A stretch of 5,377 bases of DNA from JBHIBR01 sp046759145 [NCBI: Nitrospinota bacterium]. Its GTDB lineage: Bacteria > UBA8248. The stretch is from assembly GCA_046759145.1 (NCBI GenBank), contig JBHIBR010000145.1:1-5377 (forward strand). The letters are read 5' to 3'. Positions within the stretch are counted from its first letter, which is position 1; each line of letters starts with the position of its first letter. The notes under the pieces are model-generated. The model was not told the origin of the DNA. It saw only the letters and a list, made by a program, of their open reading frames with translations, and ran no database searches. The translations under genes and the position numbers were made by a program. Of this stretch, positions 1-5,377 are shown in pieces.

Positions 1-111
1 GTAGCGGCGCAGGACCGCGTCCACCCGGAGGATGAGGAGGTCCTGTCTTGTCTTCCTCCTCCCCCGTAGCGAGCGCAGACGGCCGGGAGGGGCGGAGGTG
101 CCCACATTCAC
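1..111 (-). CDS. Start of an unrecognised gene, cut by the window edge
   Basis: An open frame begins at a GTG (complement of 109-111) and stays open to the window edge, giving 37 residues. A GGGAG-like ribosome binding sequence lies about nine bases upstream of the GTG. An in-frame stop sits about 15 codons before it. The peptide is basic, with an Arg/Lys-rich stretch followed by a likely helix ending LLILRVDAVLRRY. Third codon positions are mostly G or C, as in the real genes here. It lies 64 bases downstream of the annealing-protein gene on the same strand, so the two could be co-transcribed. I do not recognise the family. A competing plus-strand frame (1-69, ending in TAG) has lower third-position GC and a proline-rich end, so I prefer the minus-strand reading, with modest confidence. 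Confidence 0.35.
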   Translation of the reverse strand, partial: MNVGTSAPPGRLRSLRGRRKTRQDLLILRVDAVLRRY

Positions 112-175
112 GGGCGGCCTCTCCCGGAGGTCTGGAAAGGTCGAAAAAAGCGCCCCTCACCTGCCCTTCCCGCAC

Positions 176-784
176 TCACTCTGCCCTCCCCTCCCTTTCC
201 GTTACGGGCTCGGGCGGCCAACCGAGCCTGAGGGCGCGGGCGACAGCGCGCGACTTGGCGAGGTCCGCGAGTTCCCGGGGGGAGAGCTTGCGGTCCAATC
301 CCTCGTCCGGTGTGGCGAGGCCCCATTCCACGTAGGGCCGGGTCGAGCCCTGCTGGAAGAGGGCGGCCCGCCAGTAGTGGGCCCCATCCGGCACCAGGGA
401 GGCGCGGCGCTCCTCGGCCGAGGCCGGCCGAAGCTCCGCTCCGGCAGGAGGACGAGGGGAGCGGTGGGCGAGTTTCAAGAGGCCCCGGAGCGGGATGTAG
501 GGGGTCCCCTGGGCGATGACCACCTCGCCCAGGTTCGGGTCCAGGCCATAGACCCGGACGACCGTCTCGAGGGCATCCCGCTGGGCGGGCGTGAGAGGGG
601 GAGGAGAGCCTGCGTGAAGGGGCGGATCGGGCTGGGCAGGGGCTTCCCGCTCCTCTCCTCCCCCTTCCCTCGCATGCGTCTCCGGGCGCCACTCTTCGGC
701 CTCTGGCCAGGATGTCGGCGAGGATGGGCGGTCGAGCGAGGAGATGACTTCTTGCGGGGTCTCGTGCGGGGCGGAGCTCTTCAT
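176..784 (-). CDS. Putative RecT/Bet-like single-strand annealing protein, 202 aa
   Basis: Residues 1-62 are rich in Pro, Glu, Ser and Gly and are probably disordered. The conserved-looking part runs from about residue 64 to 190. It contains YGLDPNLGEVVIAQGTPYI (79-97), then GLLKLAHR (101-108), a WRAALFQQG strand (138-146), VEWGLATPDE (152-161) and an Ala/Arg-rich helix ELADLAKSRAVARALRLGWP (171-190). This order resembles the core of phage RecT/Bet annealing proteins: a GL-P-x-EI loop, a G-x-P segment, a G-x-A strand, and a final helix of the A-x-x-RA-x-x-RALR type. Such proteins coat single-stranded DNA and anneal complementary strands. The start is well supported: AAGGAG (793-798) lies eight bases before the ATG. 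It is divergent from an S24 regulator. It is shorter than typical RecT (about 270 aa), so it may be a distant or reduced member. The family call is pattern-based and could be wrong; the coding call is firmer. Confidence 0.6.
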   Translation of the reverse strand: MKSSAPHETPQEVISSLDRPSSPTSWPEAEEWRPETHAREGGGEEREAPAQPDPPLHAGSPPPLTPAQRDALETVVRVYGLDPNLGEVVIAQGTPYIPLRGLLKLAHRSPRPPAGAELRPASAEERRASLVPDGAHYWRAALFQQGSTRPYVEWGLATPDEGLDRKLSPRELADLAKSRAVARALRLGWPPEPVTEREGRAE

Positions 785-792
785 GGTGGGTT

Positions 793-798
793 CTCCTT
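793..798 (-). promoter_or_regulatory. Ribosome binding site of the annealing-protein gene
   Basis: Read on the minus strand this is AAGGAG, a near-perfect Shine-Dalgarno sequence eight bases upstream of the ATG at 784. It fixes the start of that gene. It contrasts with the divergent regulator, which has no such site. Confidence 0.75.
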
Positions 799-877
799 CT
801 CCCGATGGGTGGTGGACACTGGCTAACTAACAGAAAAATGGCGTCTTTCCAGGGCCGAAAATCGGGCCGGCAGCCAG

Positions 878-889
878 GCTCTCGAATCC
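878..889. repeat. Copy 1 of a 12-bp direct repeat around the divergent promoters
   Basis: GCTCTCGAATCC occurs here and again at 1064-1075, inside the first codons of the regulator gene. A shorter copy of its core, CGAATCC, is at 898-904. The copies lie on either side of the divergent promoter pair. A 12-base match is unremarkable across the whole window but unlikely within about 200 bases, so it could be a binding site. No protein is assigned to it. Confidence 0.4.
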
Positions 890-952
890 CTCTTCTGCGA
901 ATCCGCGACTCAACGCCCACGTGAGAGACATGGTGCCTAACGACTGATAGCA

Positions 953-981
953 AATTTATCCGTTATGCTGGGTTTTGTCAA
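953..981 (-). promoter_or_regulatory. Candidate sigma70-type promoter reading towards the annealing-protein gene
   Basis: On the minus strand a perfect TTGACA (complement of 976-981) is followed after 17 bases by TAAATT (complement of 953-958), which matches four of six positions of a -10 box. Transcription would start near 946 and leave a leader of roughly 160 bases before the ATG at 784. This is inferred from the consensus; a closer promoter is not excluded. Its -35 box lies back to back with that of the regulator, 23 bases apart. Confidence 0.55.
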
Positions 982-1004
982 GTGTTTTTTGCTTCGTTTT
1001 TCCC

Positions 1005-1032
1005 TTGACGGCCGCGCGGGGCGCTCTATAAT
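1005..1032 (+). promoter_or_regulatory. Strong sigma70-type promoter giving a leaderless mRNA for the S24 regulator
   Basis: TTGACG (1005-1010), a 16-base spacer containing the palindrome CCGCGCGG (1012-1019), and a perfect TATAAT (1027-1032) form a near-consensus promoter. A T-rich tract (985-1001) lies just upstream. The ATG of the regulator is at 1042, only nine bases after the -10 box, so transcription should start at or within about three bases of the start codon. There is no Shine-Dalgarno sequence. Confidence 0.75.
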
Positions 1033-1041
1033 TTTTAGCAA

Positions 1042-1758
1042 ATGCCAAAGAAAGTCACAGTTCGCTCTCGAATCCACCTTCCCGAATTCGGGCGCTACCT
1101 TGCGGGTTTGCGCCGCAGGCAGGGCCTCTCCCAAAAGGAGGCGGCGAAGCTCCTGGGAGAGGGCGGAGCTTCGATCGCGAGCTATGAGGCGGGTTATGTG
1201 GGAGACCCGGGGGTCAAGTTCCTGCGCGCCGCGGCGCGCCTCTACCACGTCCCCCTCGCCCAGATGATCCAGAAACTCATCGAGGAAAAGTACGGCCCCC
1301 AGGCGCTCCACACCCCTCCCTCCATCCCCCTCTCGGAGGATGGCCGCTACCGCTCCATCCCCATCGTGACCGACCCTATCGCCGCAGGGGCGGGGGTGGA
1401 GGTGGTGGACGCCCTCGTCGAGGACTACGCGGTCATCTACCGGGAGTGGCTTCCGCCGGGCCGTTGCGTGTGTGTGCGCGTGGCGGGCGACAGCATGGAG
1501 CCCACCCTGCCGGATGGCTCCATCGTCGCCATCGCCCTGGACGAGCGGGTGCTCCAGGACGGGAAGGTCTTCGCTTTCTACGATCGGGAAGTGGGGGGAG
1601 CCATCCTCAAGCGCGCCCTGGCGGCCCGGGGACGGCAGAGGGTGTGGCTGATTGTGAGCGACAACCCAGACCGCAAGCGCTACCCCGTGCTCGCCTACGA
1701 CGAGGAGCGCTTCTTCATCGCGGGGCGCGCCTCCTGGGCGTGGAAGACATTCGAGTGA
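1042..1758 (+). CDS. XRE-family transcriptional regulator with S24 (LexA/CI-type) autopeptidase domain, 238 aa
   Basis: Residues about 15-72 form an XRE/Cro helix-turn-helix (LRRRQGLSQKEAAKLLG, then ASIASYEAG as the likely recognition region). Residues about 104-234 are an S24 domain. It shows the nucleophile Ser151 in VAGDSMEPTLPDGS, the general-base Lys190 in GGAILKR, and Ala-Gly bonds in DPIAAGAG (111-118), where LexA, UmuD and CI cleave themselves. The Ser-Lys spacing of 39 residues is close to that of LexA (37). By family, it should bind operators as a dimer and be inactivated by RecA-stimulated self-cleavage after DNA damage; that it is cleaved is inferred. Some relatives keep the fold as a dimerisation or sensing domain without cleavage. 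The start is forced: an in-frame TAG lies at 1036-1038 and the next in-frame Met is far inside the protein. It is divergent from the annealing-protein gene and overlaps the next gene by four bases, so autoregulation and control of both directions are likely. Confidence 0.9.
   Translation: MPKKVTVRSRIHLPEFGRYLAGLRRRQGLSQKEAAKLLGEGGASIASYEAGYVGDPGVKFLRAAARLYHVPLAQMIQKLIEEKYGPQALHTPPSIPLSEDGRYRSIPIVTDPIAAGAGVEVVDALVEDYAVIYREWLPPGRCVCVRVAGDSMEPTLPDGSIVAIALDERVLQDGKVFAFYDREVGGAILKRALAARGRQRVWLIVSDNPDRKRYPVLAYDEERFFIAGRASWAWKTFE
1064..1075. repeat. Copy 2 of the 12-bp direct repeat
   Basis: This copy of GCTCTCGAATCC is identical to the one at 878-889. It falls in codons 8-12 of the regulator gene, 32 bases after TATAAT, where a bound protein could block transcription. 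Confidence 0.4.
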
Positions 1759-2030
1759 GCGAGGAGCCCGTGGCGCACCCCCGAAGCCGCAGAGAGCAGA
1801 CCAAAGCCGCCGCCGAGAAGCTGAGCCGGCTGCTGGCGGGGCCGCTCGAGGACATCCCCACCATGTGCTACAACTTCGCCGGAGAGGGCTTCCGGCTCAG
1901 CTGGGGCCCGCCCCCCGCCGAAGAGGAAGAACGGCCGAGCACACACCTCACCCTGGAGGAGATCGCCACCCTCGCCGACGACGAGCTCGCACGCCTCATC
2001 CGCCACCGGGTAGAGGCCGCCGGCGACTGA
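1755..2030 (+). CDS. Small protein of unknown function, translationally coupled to the S24 regulator, 91 aa
   Basis: The start is a GTG at 1755 whose last bases form the TGA stop of the regulator (GTGA overlap), a hallmark of translational coupling. A GGAAG sequence at about 1742-1746 is a possible ribosome site. The protein starts with a Ser/Arg/Lys/Ala-rich helix-like part (EQTKAAAEKLSRLLAGP, residues 14-30). A middle segment with CYNFAGEGFRLSWGPPP (38-54) follows, then an acidic linker (EEEER). The end is an amphipathic helix region, LTLEEIATLADDELARLIRHR (65-85). No signal peptide, membrane segment or known catalytic motif is visible, and I do not recognise a family. Its position suggests a co-regulated partner, for example a modulator of the regulator; this is inference. 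The same frame extends upstream to 1446, but that part lies over the S24 domain and is not believable. A shorter start at ATG 1863 (55 aa) is possible. Confidence 0.65.
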   Translation: MSEEPVAHPRSRREQTKAAAEKLSRLLAGPLEDIPTMCYNFAGEGFRLSWGPPPAEEEERPSTHLTLEEIATLADDELARLIRHRVEAAGD

Positions 2031-2072
2031 GGGAACGGGGGGACTTTTACGACCTCCGGAAGGAAGCTTCAG

Positions 2073-4382
2073 ATGGCAACAAGCATCGCCCATGACGGCC
2101 TGCGGGTTGTGGGCCAGAGGGTTCGCTTCCAGGATGCTCCCGAAAAAGCCCTCGGCACAGCCCTCTACCTGGATGACCTGCAGCTCCCGGGGATGCTGGT
2201 CGGCCGGGCGCTCCGCAGCGCCCGCTCCCACGCGCGCATCTTGGCCGTCCGGGCGGAGAGGGCGCGGCGGGTGCCAGGCGTGGCCTGTGTCCTGACGGCG
2301 GAGGACATCGGGGGGGAGGTCCTCCTCAGCACCTACCCCCACGACCCTCCCGTGATCGCGGCCCACAAGGTGCGCTGCCGGGGGGACGTGGTGGCTCTGG
2401 TGGCTGCCGAGAGCCCCGATGCGGCCGAGGAGGCTCTCTCCCTCATCGAGGTGGCCTACGAACCCCTCCCCGCGGTGGACGACCCCCTCCAAGCCCTCGC
2501 CCCCGGCGCCCCAAAACTCTTCCCCGAGGGGAACCTCCTCAACCACGGCAAGGTCCGCAAGGGAGAGGGAGCGGGGGGCTTCCGGTATGCGGACGTGGTC
2601 GCGGAGGGGGAGTACCGCACCCCCTGCGTGGACCACCTCTATCTCGAGGTAGAAGGTGCGTGTGCCGCCTTCGGGCCCGACGGCTCGCTCACCCTATGGG
2701 CGGCGAGCCAGCAGCCCTTCAGCGTGCGGAAGCACCTGGCGCGCGCGCTGGGCTTGAAGGGAGAGGGGAGGGTGCGCTTCATCCAGACCCTTCCCGGCGG
2801 GGCCTTCGGGGGGAAGAGCGAGGCCGCCCTTGATGCGGGGCTCCGGGCGGCCTTCCTGGCGCGGGCGGCGGGCCGCCCGGTCAAGCTCGTCTACTCCCGG
2901 GAGGAGTCCCTCATCGCCTCCTCCAAGCGCCACCCGATGGTGATCCGCTACAAGACCGGGGCGACCCGGGGGGGGAAGCTGGTCGCGGCCGAGGTGGAGG
3001 TCTATCTCGATAAGGGCGCCTACACCGCCTACGGGGGGAAGAAGCCCCCCGCCTTCCACCGCGCCACCTTTCACTGCACGGGGCCCTACGAGATCCCCCA
3101 CGTCCACGTGGACGTCTTCTGCGCCCACACTAACAACCCCTATGGGGGCCAGATGCGCGCCCCGGGCTGCCCGCAGGTCCATTTCGCCTGCGAGGCCCAG
3201 ATGGATGCCCTCGCCCGGCTCCTCCACATGGACCCCCTGGAGCTGCGCCGCCGCAATGCCCTGCGCCCGGGCAGCCGCACCGCCTCGGGCCAGCGCCTGG
3301 GGGAGAGCGTGGGGCTGGTGGAGACCATCGACAAAGCGGCGGCCCGCTTCGGCTGGGCCGACCGGGCGGGCCTCCCCCGGCGGGCCCCCGATGGGAGGCT
3401 CCGGGGGTTCGGGGCGGCCTGCTGCTGGTATGGGACGGGGAACGCCTACAGCGGCTCCGAGGCCCACTTCTTCCTCACCGCGGAGGGCACCTTCCGCCTC
3501 GCCACGGGGGTGGTGGACTTCGGCCAGGGGAGCAAGACGGTGTTGTCCCAGATGGCCGCCGAGGTGCTGGGCGTCCCCTACGGCCTCCTCCACATGGGCA
3601 ACGTGGACACCGCCCTCGACCCCTTCGGCGGCACCTCCACCTCCTCCCGCATCACCATGCAGGTCGGAAACGCCGTCGTGCGCGCGGCCGAGGCAGCCCG
3701 GGAAGAGCTCAAGAGGCTCGCCGCGGAGATGCTGGAGGTGGACCCCTCGGACCTCGAGCTCGCGGGCGAGGGGGTCCGCTCCCGCTCCCACCCCGAGACG
3801 AGGGTGAGCTTCGCCGAACTCGCCCGCCGTTGCGTGATGGATGAGCGCCGCCTCCTGGCCCGGGGCGCCTGGGAGCCGCCGGCCGTCAAGCTGGAAGAGG
3901 ATACGGGCCAGGGCAATCTCTGGGAGGTGTACGCCTTTGGCACCCAGTGCGTGGAGGTGCTGGTGGACTCCGACACGGGCGAGGTGGAGGTGACCCGCGT
4001 GGTGGCCGCCCACGACGTGGGCCGGGCCATCAGCCCCCTGGGGGTCGAGCAACAGGTGGAAGGGGGGGTGTACATGGGGCTCAGCTTCGGCCTGATGGAG
4101 GAGCTCGTCCAGCGGGGGGGCCAGGTGCTGAGCCCGGACCTGGCCAGCTATCTCGTCCCCACCGCCCTCGACGTCCCCGACCGCGTGGAATCCCTCCTCG
4201 TCGAGTCCGCCTACCCGGGGGGGCCCTTCGGCGCCAAGGGGGCGGGCGAGCCCCCCAACGTGCCCACCGCCGCCGCCCTCGCCTCGGCGGTGGAGGACGC
4301 CACCGGCCTCCGCCTGCGGGAGCTCCCCCTTACGGCGGAACGGGTGCGGATGGGGTTGCGAGCGGTGCGAGAGAGGGGATGA
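2073..4382 (+). CDS. Molybdopterin-binding large subunit of a xanthine dehydrogenase/aldehyde oxidase-family enzyme, 769 aa
   Basis: This family oxidises or hydroxylates aldehydes, purines or other N-heterocycles with water as oxygen source, passing electrons through iron-sulfur and FAD subunits. An a/b hammerhead domain lies at about residues 20-135, followed by two cofactor-binding halves. Visible signatures are SQQPF (212-216, aligning with the cofactor-contacting Gln of xanthine dehydrogenase), GGAFGGK (242-248), RAPGCPQ (362-368), DFGQGSKT (482-489) and GPFGAKGAGE (717-726), which ends in the catalytic base Glu726. All key positions are present and the length is normal, so it looks functional. 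The CO-dehydrogenase loop (AYxCSFR) is absent, so it is not form I CoxL. The substrate cannot be named. ATG 2073 has AAGGAAG six bases upstream. It begins 42 bases after the 91-aa gene with no visible terminator between, so readthrough from the regulator promoter is possible. No small [2Fe-2S] or FAD subunit gene is in the window, which is unusual for this family. Confidence 0.93.
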   Translation: MATSIAHDGLRVVGQRVRFQDAPEKALGTALYLDDLQLPGMLVGRALRSARSHARILAVRAERARRVPGVACVLTAEDIGGEVLLSTYPHDPPVIAAHKVRCRGDVVALVAAESPDAAEEALSLIEVAYEPLPAVDDPLQALAPGAPKLFPEGNLLNHGKVRKGEGAGGFRYADVVAEGEYRTPCVDHLYLEVEGACAAFGPDGSLTLWAASQQPFSVRKHLARALGLKGEGRVRFIQTLPGGAFGGKSEAALDAGLRAAFLARAAGRPVKLVYSREESLIASSKRHPMVIRYKTGATRGGKLVAAEVEVYLDKGAYTAYGGKKPPAFHRATFHCTGPYEIPHVHVDVFCAHTNNPYGGQMRAPGCPQVHFACEAQMDALARLLHMDPLELRRRNALRPGSRTASGQRLGESVGLVETIDKAAARFGWADRAGLPRRAPDGRLRGFGAACCWYGTGNAYSGSEAHFFLTAEGTFRLATGVVDFGQGSKTVLSQMAAEVLGVPYGLLHMGNVDTALDPFGGTSTSSRITMQVGNAVVRAAEAAREELKRLAAEMLEVDPSDLELAGEGVRSRSHPETRVSFAELARRCVMDERRLLARGAWEPPAVKLEEDTGQGNLWEVYAFGTQCVEVLVDSDTGEVEVTRVVAAHDVGRAISPLGVEQQVEGGVYMGLSFGLMEELVQRGGQVLSPDLASYLVPTALDVPDRVESLLVESAYPGGPFGAKGAGEPPNVPTAAALASAVEDATGLRLRELPLTAERVRMGLRAVRERG

Positions 4383-4892: not shown

Positions 4893-5117
4893 CTAATAGA
4901 CCTCTGAGGTCTCTGCGCCGGCCGGCTCCTCTTTCGGCCGCCAGCGGAGGAGGTGTCGCTCGAGGCGGTTCACGGCGGCGTTGGCGAGGAGCACGATGAA
5001 CATGAGGAGGATGAGGCCCGCGAAAGAGCCCGCAATGTTAAACAAGTTGCTCGCGGGCTGGATCATGAAACCGAGCCCCTTGCTCGCCGCCATGAACTCC
5101 CCGAGGATGGCCCCGAG
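4893..5117 (-). pseudogene. C-terminal fragment of a NitT/TauT-type ABC transporter permease
   Basis: The frame reads LGAILGEF, then MAASKGLGFMIQPASNLF, then a hydrophobic membrane segment (AGLILLMFIVLLANAAV), then the end NRLERHLLRWRP with a short acidic tail. This matches the last quarter of SsuC/TauC-like permeases, which pass sulfonates, nitrate or similar small substrates through the inner membrane. In these, E-F/L-x-G/A-A-x-x-GLG precedes the last helix and the protein ends in E-R-x-x-LRWR. Only about 74 residues remain of a normal 250-280. A TGA (complement of 5118-5120) interrupts the frame directly upstream, and the DNA beyond it encodes another permease tail on the opposite strand. 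The internal ATG at 5093 is not a real start, because the homology continues before it. The piece was therefore truncated by a rearrangement, or the sequence is misjoined there. Confidence 0.75.
4936..4946. repeat. Inverted repeat arm shared by the two permease tails
   Basis: GGCCGCCAGCG here is the exact reverse complement of CGCTGGCGGCC at 5188-5198. Both encode the RWRP ending of the two opposing permease fragments, so the repeat reflects their homology. Confidence 0.55.
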
Positions 5118-5271
5118 TCATCCTGCCCCTCATGGCCGTCGTCCTCCTCGTGAACCAGTTCCTCAACTGGGCCGAGAACCGGGCCTGCGCTGGCGGCCCC
5201 CCGTCCAGATGGGCCAGGACGGCAGGATGCCCTCTCGCCCGGCCTCCCTCAGAAGCCCGCCAGCCCTTTGA
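5117..5271 (+). pseudogene. Second ABC permease C-terminal fragment, opposite strand, with a frameshift
   Basis: From about 5117 the plus strand reads VILPLMAVVLLVNQFLNWAE, then NRA. A one-base slip at about 5185 moves to the frame reading LRWRPPVQMGQDG and ending at TGA 5269-5271. Joined, the text VLLVNQFLNWAENRALRWRP aligns without gaps to VLLANAAVNRLERHLLRWRP of the minus-strand fragment, with 11 of 20 residues identical. This shows a homologous but different permease end. The slip looks like one missing C (gcctg where gccctg is expected). Everything before the last membrane segment is absent, because the DNA upstream belongs to the other permease in reverse. The segment is short and spans two frames, so the evidence rests on this alignment. 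The frameshift may be decay or a sequencing error. Confidence 0.6.
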
Positions 5272-5377
5272 TGACCCGGTAGATGGAAGAGCCGTCCTCT
5301 CCTTCTCCCCCGTGCGCGCGCTGGACGAGGTAGAGCTGGTGAGCCAATGCGGTGAGGGGGAGCGGGACGTCGAGCTC
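5249..5377 (-). CDS. C-terminal end of a 3-hydroxyisobutyrate dehydrogenase-type oxidoreductase (partial)
   Basis: The frame is open from the window edge to a TGA (complement of 5249-5251), giving 42 residues. They begin ELDVPLPLTALAHQLYLVQR and continue with GEGEDGSSIYRVIKGLAGF. This matches the last helices of beta-hydroxyacid dehydrogenases (3-hydroxyisobutyrate dehydrogenase, tartronate semialdehyde reductase and relatives). These typically end with ELG-x-PLPLT, a Q-x-Y/F helix, and G-x-x-DxSAI-x-x-V. Such enzymes oxidise or reduce small 3-hydroxyacids with NAD(P). The Rossmann domain and catalytic Lys lie outside the window, so cofactor and substrate cannot be judged. Its end overlaps the end of the convergent permease fragment by 23 bases. 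Confidence 0.7.
   Translation of the reverse strand, partial: ELDVPLPLTALAHQLYLVQRAHGGEGEDGSSIYRVIKGLAGF

Follow-up and report, generated by a model that had tools for sequence, protein, structure and literature searches.

A probable phage control region pairing an S24 repressor gene with a divergent RecT-like gene

Our question was what kind of element sets the genes for an S24 peptidase repressor and a putative annealing protein back to back. Both genes lie in a stretch of 5,377 nucleotides, hereafter the window, and a preliminary description had proposed that together they may form a damage-inducible annealing module. We favour a related reading, to which we give a probability of roughly two in three. 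Here, the locus would be the control (immunity) region of a temperate phage or phage-derived element, with the S24 protein as the lysogeny repressor and recT as the first gene of the repressed operon.

Genes and promoters of the window

The features are listed in Table 1. Both ORFs named in the preliminary description are found where it placed them. They are transcribed divergently and separated by a gap of 257 bp. The back-to-back promoters that it described are also present, and near consensus; two were found, and 50 shuffles of window positions 1-2100 gave 0.1 on average. With this arrangement, the S24 transcript would be nearly leaderless.

Table 1. Positions of features at the repressor-recT locus and the basis of each assignment
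Feature	Position	Strand	Basis
Possible 5' end of another gene on the downstream side of recT, continuing past the window edge (tentative, short)	1-111	-	Codon-position GC
recT-like gene, 202 aa: disordered N-terminal ~60 residues, predicted RecT/Redbeta-type core ~61-190, almost no C-terminal tail	176-784	-	ORF, profile test, predicted fold, PDB alignment, codon-position GC
Ribosome-binding site GAAGGAG of recT-like gene, 8 nt 5' of ATG	793-799	-	Sequence
TAGCAAAT copy 1, overlapping the -10 element of the recT promoter; weak operator candidate	948-955		Chance 3.75%
Sigma-70-like promoter towards recT, TTGACA-17-TAAATT, 10/12; leader ~160 nt	953-981	-	Promoter scan
Sigma-70-like promoter towards S24 gene, TTGACG-16-TATAAT, 11/12; 9 nt from end of -10 element to ATG	1005-1032	+	Promoter scan and sequence
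TAGCAAAT copy 2, at the S24 gene start; weak operator candidate	1036-1043		Chance 3.75%
HTH and S24 peptidase repressor, 238 aa; Ser151, Lys190, Ala115-Gly116	1042-1758	+	Pfam, PHROGs, alignments
91-aa ORF, 4-base overlap with the S24 stop	1755-2030	+	Sequence

Between the genes, no palindrome of 14-26 bp (positions 930-1060) clearly beat shuffled sequence, the lowest count being 77 of 300. An 8-bp word, TAGCAAAT, is common to both promoter neighbourhoods. Note that such a word arises in 3.75% of resampled pairs; a claim of an operator based on this word was rejected.

The 91-aa ORF that follows the repressor is probably co-expressed with it. This ORF has no curated family in Pfam, NCBIfam or PADLOC and no credible phage match; there are two weak PHROG matches, of unknown function. 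Downstream, a gene for an XDH-type enzyme starts 315 bp past the repressor and is followed by a small lipoprotein-like ORF. On the other side, the window stops 175 bp past recT. Positions 1-114 have a GC content, by codon position, of 0.71/0.55/0.84, which is coding-like, in a short stretch; a phage match was sought for the minus-strand frame at this edge and none was found. Integrase, Cro and structural genes were not recognised in the window. The absence of integrase and structural genes says little, because the window continues for only 175 bp past recT, and of these the outermost 111 bp have a coding appearance. Rfam and tRNA scans of the window gave no matches, and a PADLOC scan gave a weak HTH match only.

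The repressor and the RecT-like protein

The 238-aa protein matches Pfam families Peptidase_S24 (5e-13), HTH_31 (2.7e-10) and HTH_3 (2.3e-08), and the transcriptional repressor family phrog_4 among PHROGs (1.9e-26). Its HTH is of the Cro/CI type. The intact Ser151/Lys190 pair and Ala-Gly site reported previously were confirmed, with correct numbering. Thus, Ser151 is inside a GDSM motif, and an Ala-Gly pair at 115-116 is followed by a second at 117-118. Ser151, Lys190 and Ala115-Gly116 are identical in an alignment with two viral S24 relatives. In a five-protein alignment with four phage repressors the site residues also agree, the one exception being a Cys-Gly cleavage site in D3 cI. Hence, the HTH and S24 peptidase domains, Ser-Lys pair and Ala-Gly site expected of an S24 repressor are all present. 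The nearest phage proteins, taken from the best 20 of 128 records, are CI-type repressors with 25-29% identity. The structure model was poor (mean pLDDT 37). A search of viral contigs gave no usable match, and searches of genomes gave matches in 1 of 20 and 9 of 395. Some of the genome stretches around these relatives have DnaB-like or transposable-phage-like genes alongside, as judged by reading the ORFs.

Direct searches with the 202-aa protein gave little. Pfam, PHROGs and NCBIfam gave no family match, even with E values of up to 10 allowed, and there was no usable match among viral contigs or genome contigs. Three plasmid records had E values of 5-10, and the best PDB sequence (E 0.045) was an unrelated designed cage. 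Four of 151 genomes gave matches at E <= 0.01, all long ORFs judged to be chance, and none of 395 did so at E <= 1e-5. The best phage match was weak (E 0.8); from it we reached a podovirus protein whose marginal match to Rad52 was under the cut-off. The GC content at the three codon positions (0.76/0.58/0.82) is consistent with a real gene.

Kinship with RecT emerged through intermediates. A DNA pattern derived from a motif of the window protein matched nine viral stretches. Genuine RecT-like ORFs are present in two of these (L104 and L106); the other seven (L105 and L107-L112) lack them and were rejected as relatives. Further relatives were gathered by a scan of viral contigs. Against a Pfam RecT cut-off of 24 bits, L104 (26.9) and another relative, L137 (124.8), pass and L106 (21.7) falls short. 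A profile from 21 relatives, with the window protein excluded, scored the 202-aa protein at 38.5 bits. The best of 4054 decoy ORFs scored 8.2, and the best of 1000 full-length shuffles 6.4. A separately gathered family of 10 also ranked the 202-aa protein first (13.7 bits, compared with 5.9 for the best decoy and 7.3 for the best shuffle). Note that most of the profile signal comes from the core's N-terminal half, part of which, within the motif, had served to find some of the relatives. The C-terminal half alone scored 0.0 bits with the 21-relative profile, which counts against a RecT assignment. A TRDG motif, common to the nearer relatives, is absent from the 202-aa protein. The profile search suggested in the preliminary description failed in its direct form and succeeded by way of relatives, of which L104 and L137 are themselves RecT by Pfam; the RecT/Bet-like identity claimed for the gene is upheld. 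RecT-type profiles run over genomes gave matches in 1 of 198, none of 199 and 4 of 217. Separately, one RecT/Rad52-like viral protein (L092, 5953-7062) has a C-terminal match to an E3-binding domain (PF02817, 6.2e-06).

The predicted fold points the same way. In an AlphaFold2 model, the core (residues 61-190) has block means of 69-95 pLDDT; the underlying alignment, of window and viral-contig proteins, already held RecT-like rows. Compared with the PDB using VIA-align, model residues 49-188 fit best on lambda Redbeta (7ujl; Z 8.1, 125 aligned, rmsd 5.0), which is ahead of the remaining structures by 3 Z units. Next are Sak (Z 5.0, level with an unrelated deformylase) and RAD52 (4.7), with unrelated rows interspersed at 4-5. 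Foldseek found no PDB match at E <= 0.001, and its first two rows were the yeast annealing protein Mgm101. Three BFVD matches at E <= 0.001 are uncharacterised or unnamed among the matches listed. In addition, a profile from 15 relatives, without the window protein, matches Redbeta 7ujl by sequence (2.5e-7, 138 positions). On the strength of these fold rows and this profile, the core is predicted to be RecT/Redbeta-like, among the Rad52-type annealing proteins.

With lambda Redbeta and the RecT family (PF03837, Rad52 superfamily), the 202-aa protein has the predicted core fold and an N-terminal core motif in common. It differs in having no direct Pfam match, no C-terminal domain and a long disordered N-terminus. 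We call the protein RecT-like, and do not file it as a family member; its score is below the Pfam RecT cut-off, which is a library threshold and not a biological trait. According to one report, truncated Redbeta anneals but does not recombine (PMC5052646). Since the 202-aa protein has almost no tail, annealing without recombination is, by analogy, a fair expectation.

Layout in relatives and the phage control region

Thermus phages phiMa and Cumys offer one of the closest plans. In each, a LexA-like S24 regulator is on the opposite strand to, and divergent from, an early operon that contains a RecT-like relative. The window has the same plan, the one expected of an immunity region, in which the repressor is divergent from an early operon containing recombination genes. 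A paper on such Thermus phage loci describes a lysis-lysogeny switch that might answer DNA damage (PMC11437467). There are also differences. In the Thermus phages, a small regulator is first in the early operon and recT is 1.77 kb from the S24 ORF, whereas recT is first in the window. Cumys has an integrase after the repressor, and none is visible in the window. The S24 protein of the window and the viral copies aligned with it have only 26-27% identity.

Of 46 loci with RecT relatives, four (L113, L115, L133 and L135, two of which are phiMa-type) include a complete S24 gene in divergent orientation, at a distance of 1.8-2.3 kb. None has a directly adjacent S24-recT pair; note that several of these loci share a contig and that many are cut off within 6 kb. 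In 14 hand-picked annotated records, opposite-strand S24/HTH matches are 1.77-3.2 kb from recT, compared with 257 bp in the window. For genomes, we found no recT in 10 stretches around S24 relatives (some short, at contig ends). Similarly, there was no S24 peptidase in two stretches around RecT relatives, one of which has an HTH gene 6.5 kb away, and no S24 match in four further stretches of this kind. The pair therefore recurs in none of the 16 genome stretches surveyed near S24 or RecT relatives, some of them short. The expectation that the two genes would occur together in relatives is borne out in Thermus phages, where an S24 gene and a related recT belong to a single control region, but not for an adjacent pair, in either the 46 loci or the 16 genome stretches.

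More compact arrangements exist in other viral contigs. L132 has a divergent HTH regulator ~270 bp from recT, L130 has a divergent HTH pair and then recT, and L129 has an HTH gene just upstream. As in the window, the HTH proteins of L130 and L132 are Cro/CI-type and near a related recT. Unlike the window protein, they have no S24 domain, and in L130 recT is preceded by a further HTH gene. L132, where a divergent HTH gene sits beside recT, led us to reject a claim of uniqueness for the S24-recT adjacency. A literature survey covering titles and the openings of abstracts gave no account of an S24 repressor in direct divergence from recT. As a side observation, assorted small viral RecT-like proteins (L136, 5944-7005, and L129-L132) adjoin Cro/CI-type HTH genes, and those scanned match PHROGs or Pfam weakly or near the cut-off.

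Our preference for a phage control region draws on the S24 and HTH domains, the preserved Ser, Lys and Ala-Gly residues, the RecT kinship, the promoters, the Thermus phage plan and the DnaB-like or transposable-phage-like genes beside some S24 relatives in genomes. Several observations count against it. No integrase, Cro or structural gene was seen in the window and no operator was demonstrated in the gap. The gap is 257 bp, against at least 1.77 kb in the 14 annotated records, and the XDH gene, 315 bp past the repressor, is a normal chromosomal enzyme gene.

If the locus is a phage control region, the S24 repressor would occupy DNA between the two genes, hold the leftward recT operon off and probably tune its own transcript. 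Following DNA damage, RecA filaments would cause the repressor to cut itself at Ala115-Gly116, using Ser151 and Lys190. With the repressor lost, the leftward operon would be turned on, led by the divergent RecT/Redbeta-type protein and its presumed annealing activity. This operon may well go on to the left, beyond the window, because the edge frame, 175 bp past recT, has coding-like GC. Control of recT by the repressor, and a response to DNA damage, are plausible. The damage-inducible module proposed at the outset is partly supported, in that the S24 repressor is intact, its partner is RecT/Redbeta-like and their promoters diverge; the palindrome search and the shared 8-bp word (3.75%) do not add to this support. 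A phage control region of this kind would add a distant RecT-like protein, missed by family libraries, and a compact repressor-recT layout.

Other readings and neighbouring genes

Could the pair instead be a self-contained host damage unit, in which a phage S24 repressor, captured by the chromosome, governs itself and a divergent, stand-alone RecT-like gene without a tail? We consider this unlikely, yet the best of the alternatives. The two genes are directly divergent, with good promoters, and a chromosomal-type XDH gene adjoins them. That directly adjacent S24-recT pairs are absent from the phage loci examined would also fit a reduced unit. Moreover, there is a precedent in Francisella FddR, described as a co-opted phage S24 repressor whose targets are its own gene and a divergent one, which in some species is dinB (PMC13148647). 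FddR shows that a captured S24 repressor and one divergent gene can form a damage unit, which leaves this reading a small share of the probability. The likeness lies in a phage-type S24 repressor that directly faces a single divergent gene, in units of fddR and a divergent gene or fddR-dinB. The Francisella units differ in having a proven palindromic site and genus-wide conservation (PMC13148647); in the window no palindrome clearly beat shuffles, the pair did not recur in the 16 genome stretches, and the partner is a RecT-like annealing protein. What weighs against a host unit is that the pair has no relatives in the 16 genome stretches (10 for S24, 2 + 4 for RecT), that the left window edge looks coding, and that the gap contains no significant operator. 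If it were correct, strand annealing would be induced by DNA damage with no phage involved. The locus would be a counterpart of Francisella fddR-dinB, with annealing replacing error-prone synthesis. As a stand-alone unit, the pair would extend captured-repressor damage modules to a second kind, one whose output is annealing, and would be relevant to the way in which divergent two-gene units serve to rebuild SOS-like networks.

Less probable again is a decaying prophage remnant, where deletions have placed recT beside the repressor and neither gene works. The compact layout without Cro would suit such decay, as would a 202-aa protein that lacks TRDG and has almost no C-terminal tail, and a likely rearranged junction elsewhere in the window (~5110-5120). 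Conversely, both ORFs are open, the promoters are near consensus, the catalytic residues are intact and codon-position GC is normal. Finally, that the 202-aa ORF is not an annealing protein, its motif match being chance or only shared substructure, is very improbable: the want of a direct match in three family libraries, the 0.0 bits of the C-terminal half, the lack of a Foldseek PDB match at E <= 0.001 and an alignment already holding RecT-like rows are set against 38.5 bits versus 8.2 for the best decoy, first rank with an independent family of 10 (13.7 versus 5.9 bits), the 3 Z unit lead of Redbeta and the two leading Mgm101 rows.

Some observations concern the remainder of the window. The XDH-type gene (2073-4382, plus strand) encodes a molybdopterin-binding large subunit of the XDH/4-hydroxybenzoyl-CoA-reductase type; small subunits are not adjacent within the window. 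Among full-length matches in the genomes searched, identity to this protein is at most ~45%. On the minus strand, positions 4893-5190 include the C-terminal portion of an ABC permease resembling SsuC/TauC (NCBIfam 1.7e-04), which ends abruptly at ~5110-5120. A permease-tail-like frame starts on the plus strand where the minus strand permease stops. The junction is possibly a chimeric assembly join or an inversion. Beyond it, the minus-strand frame at 5249-5377 resembles what we take to be the C-terminus of a 3-hydroxyisobutyrate-dehydrogenase-type enzyme.
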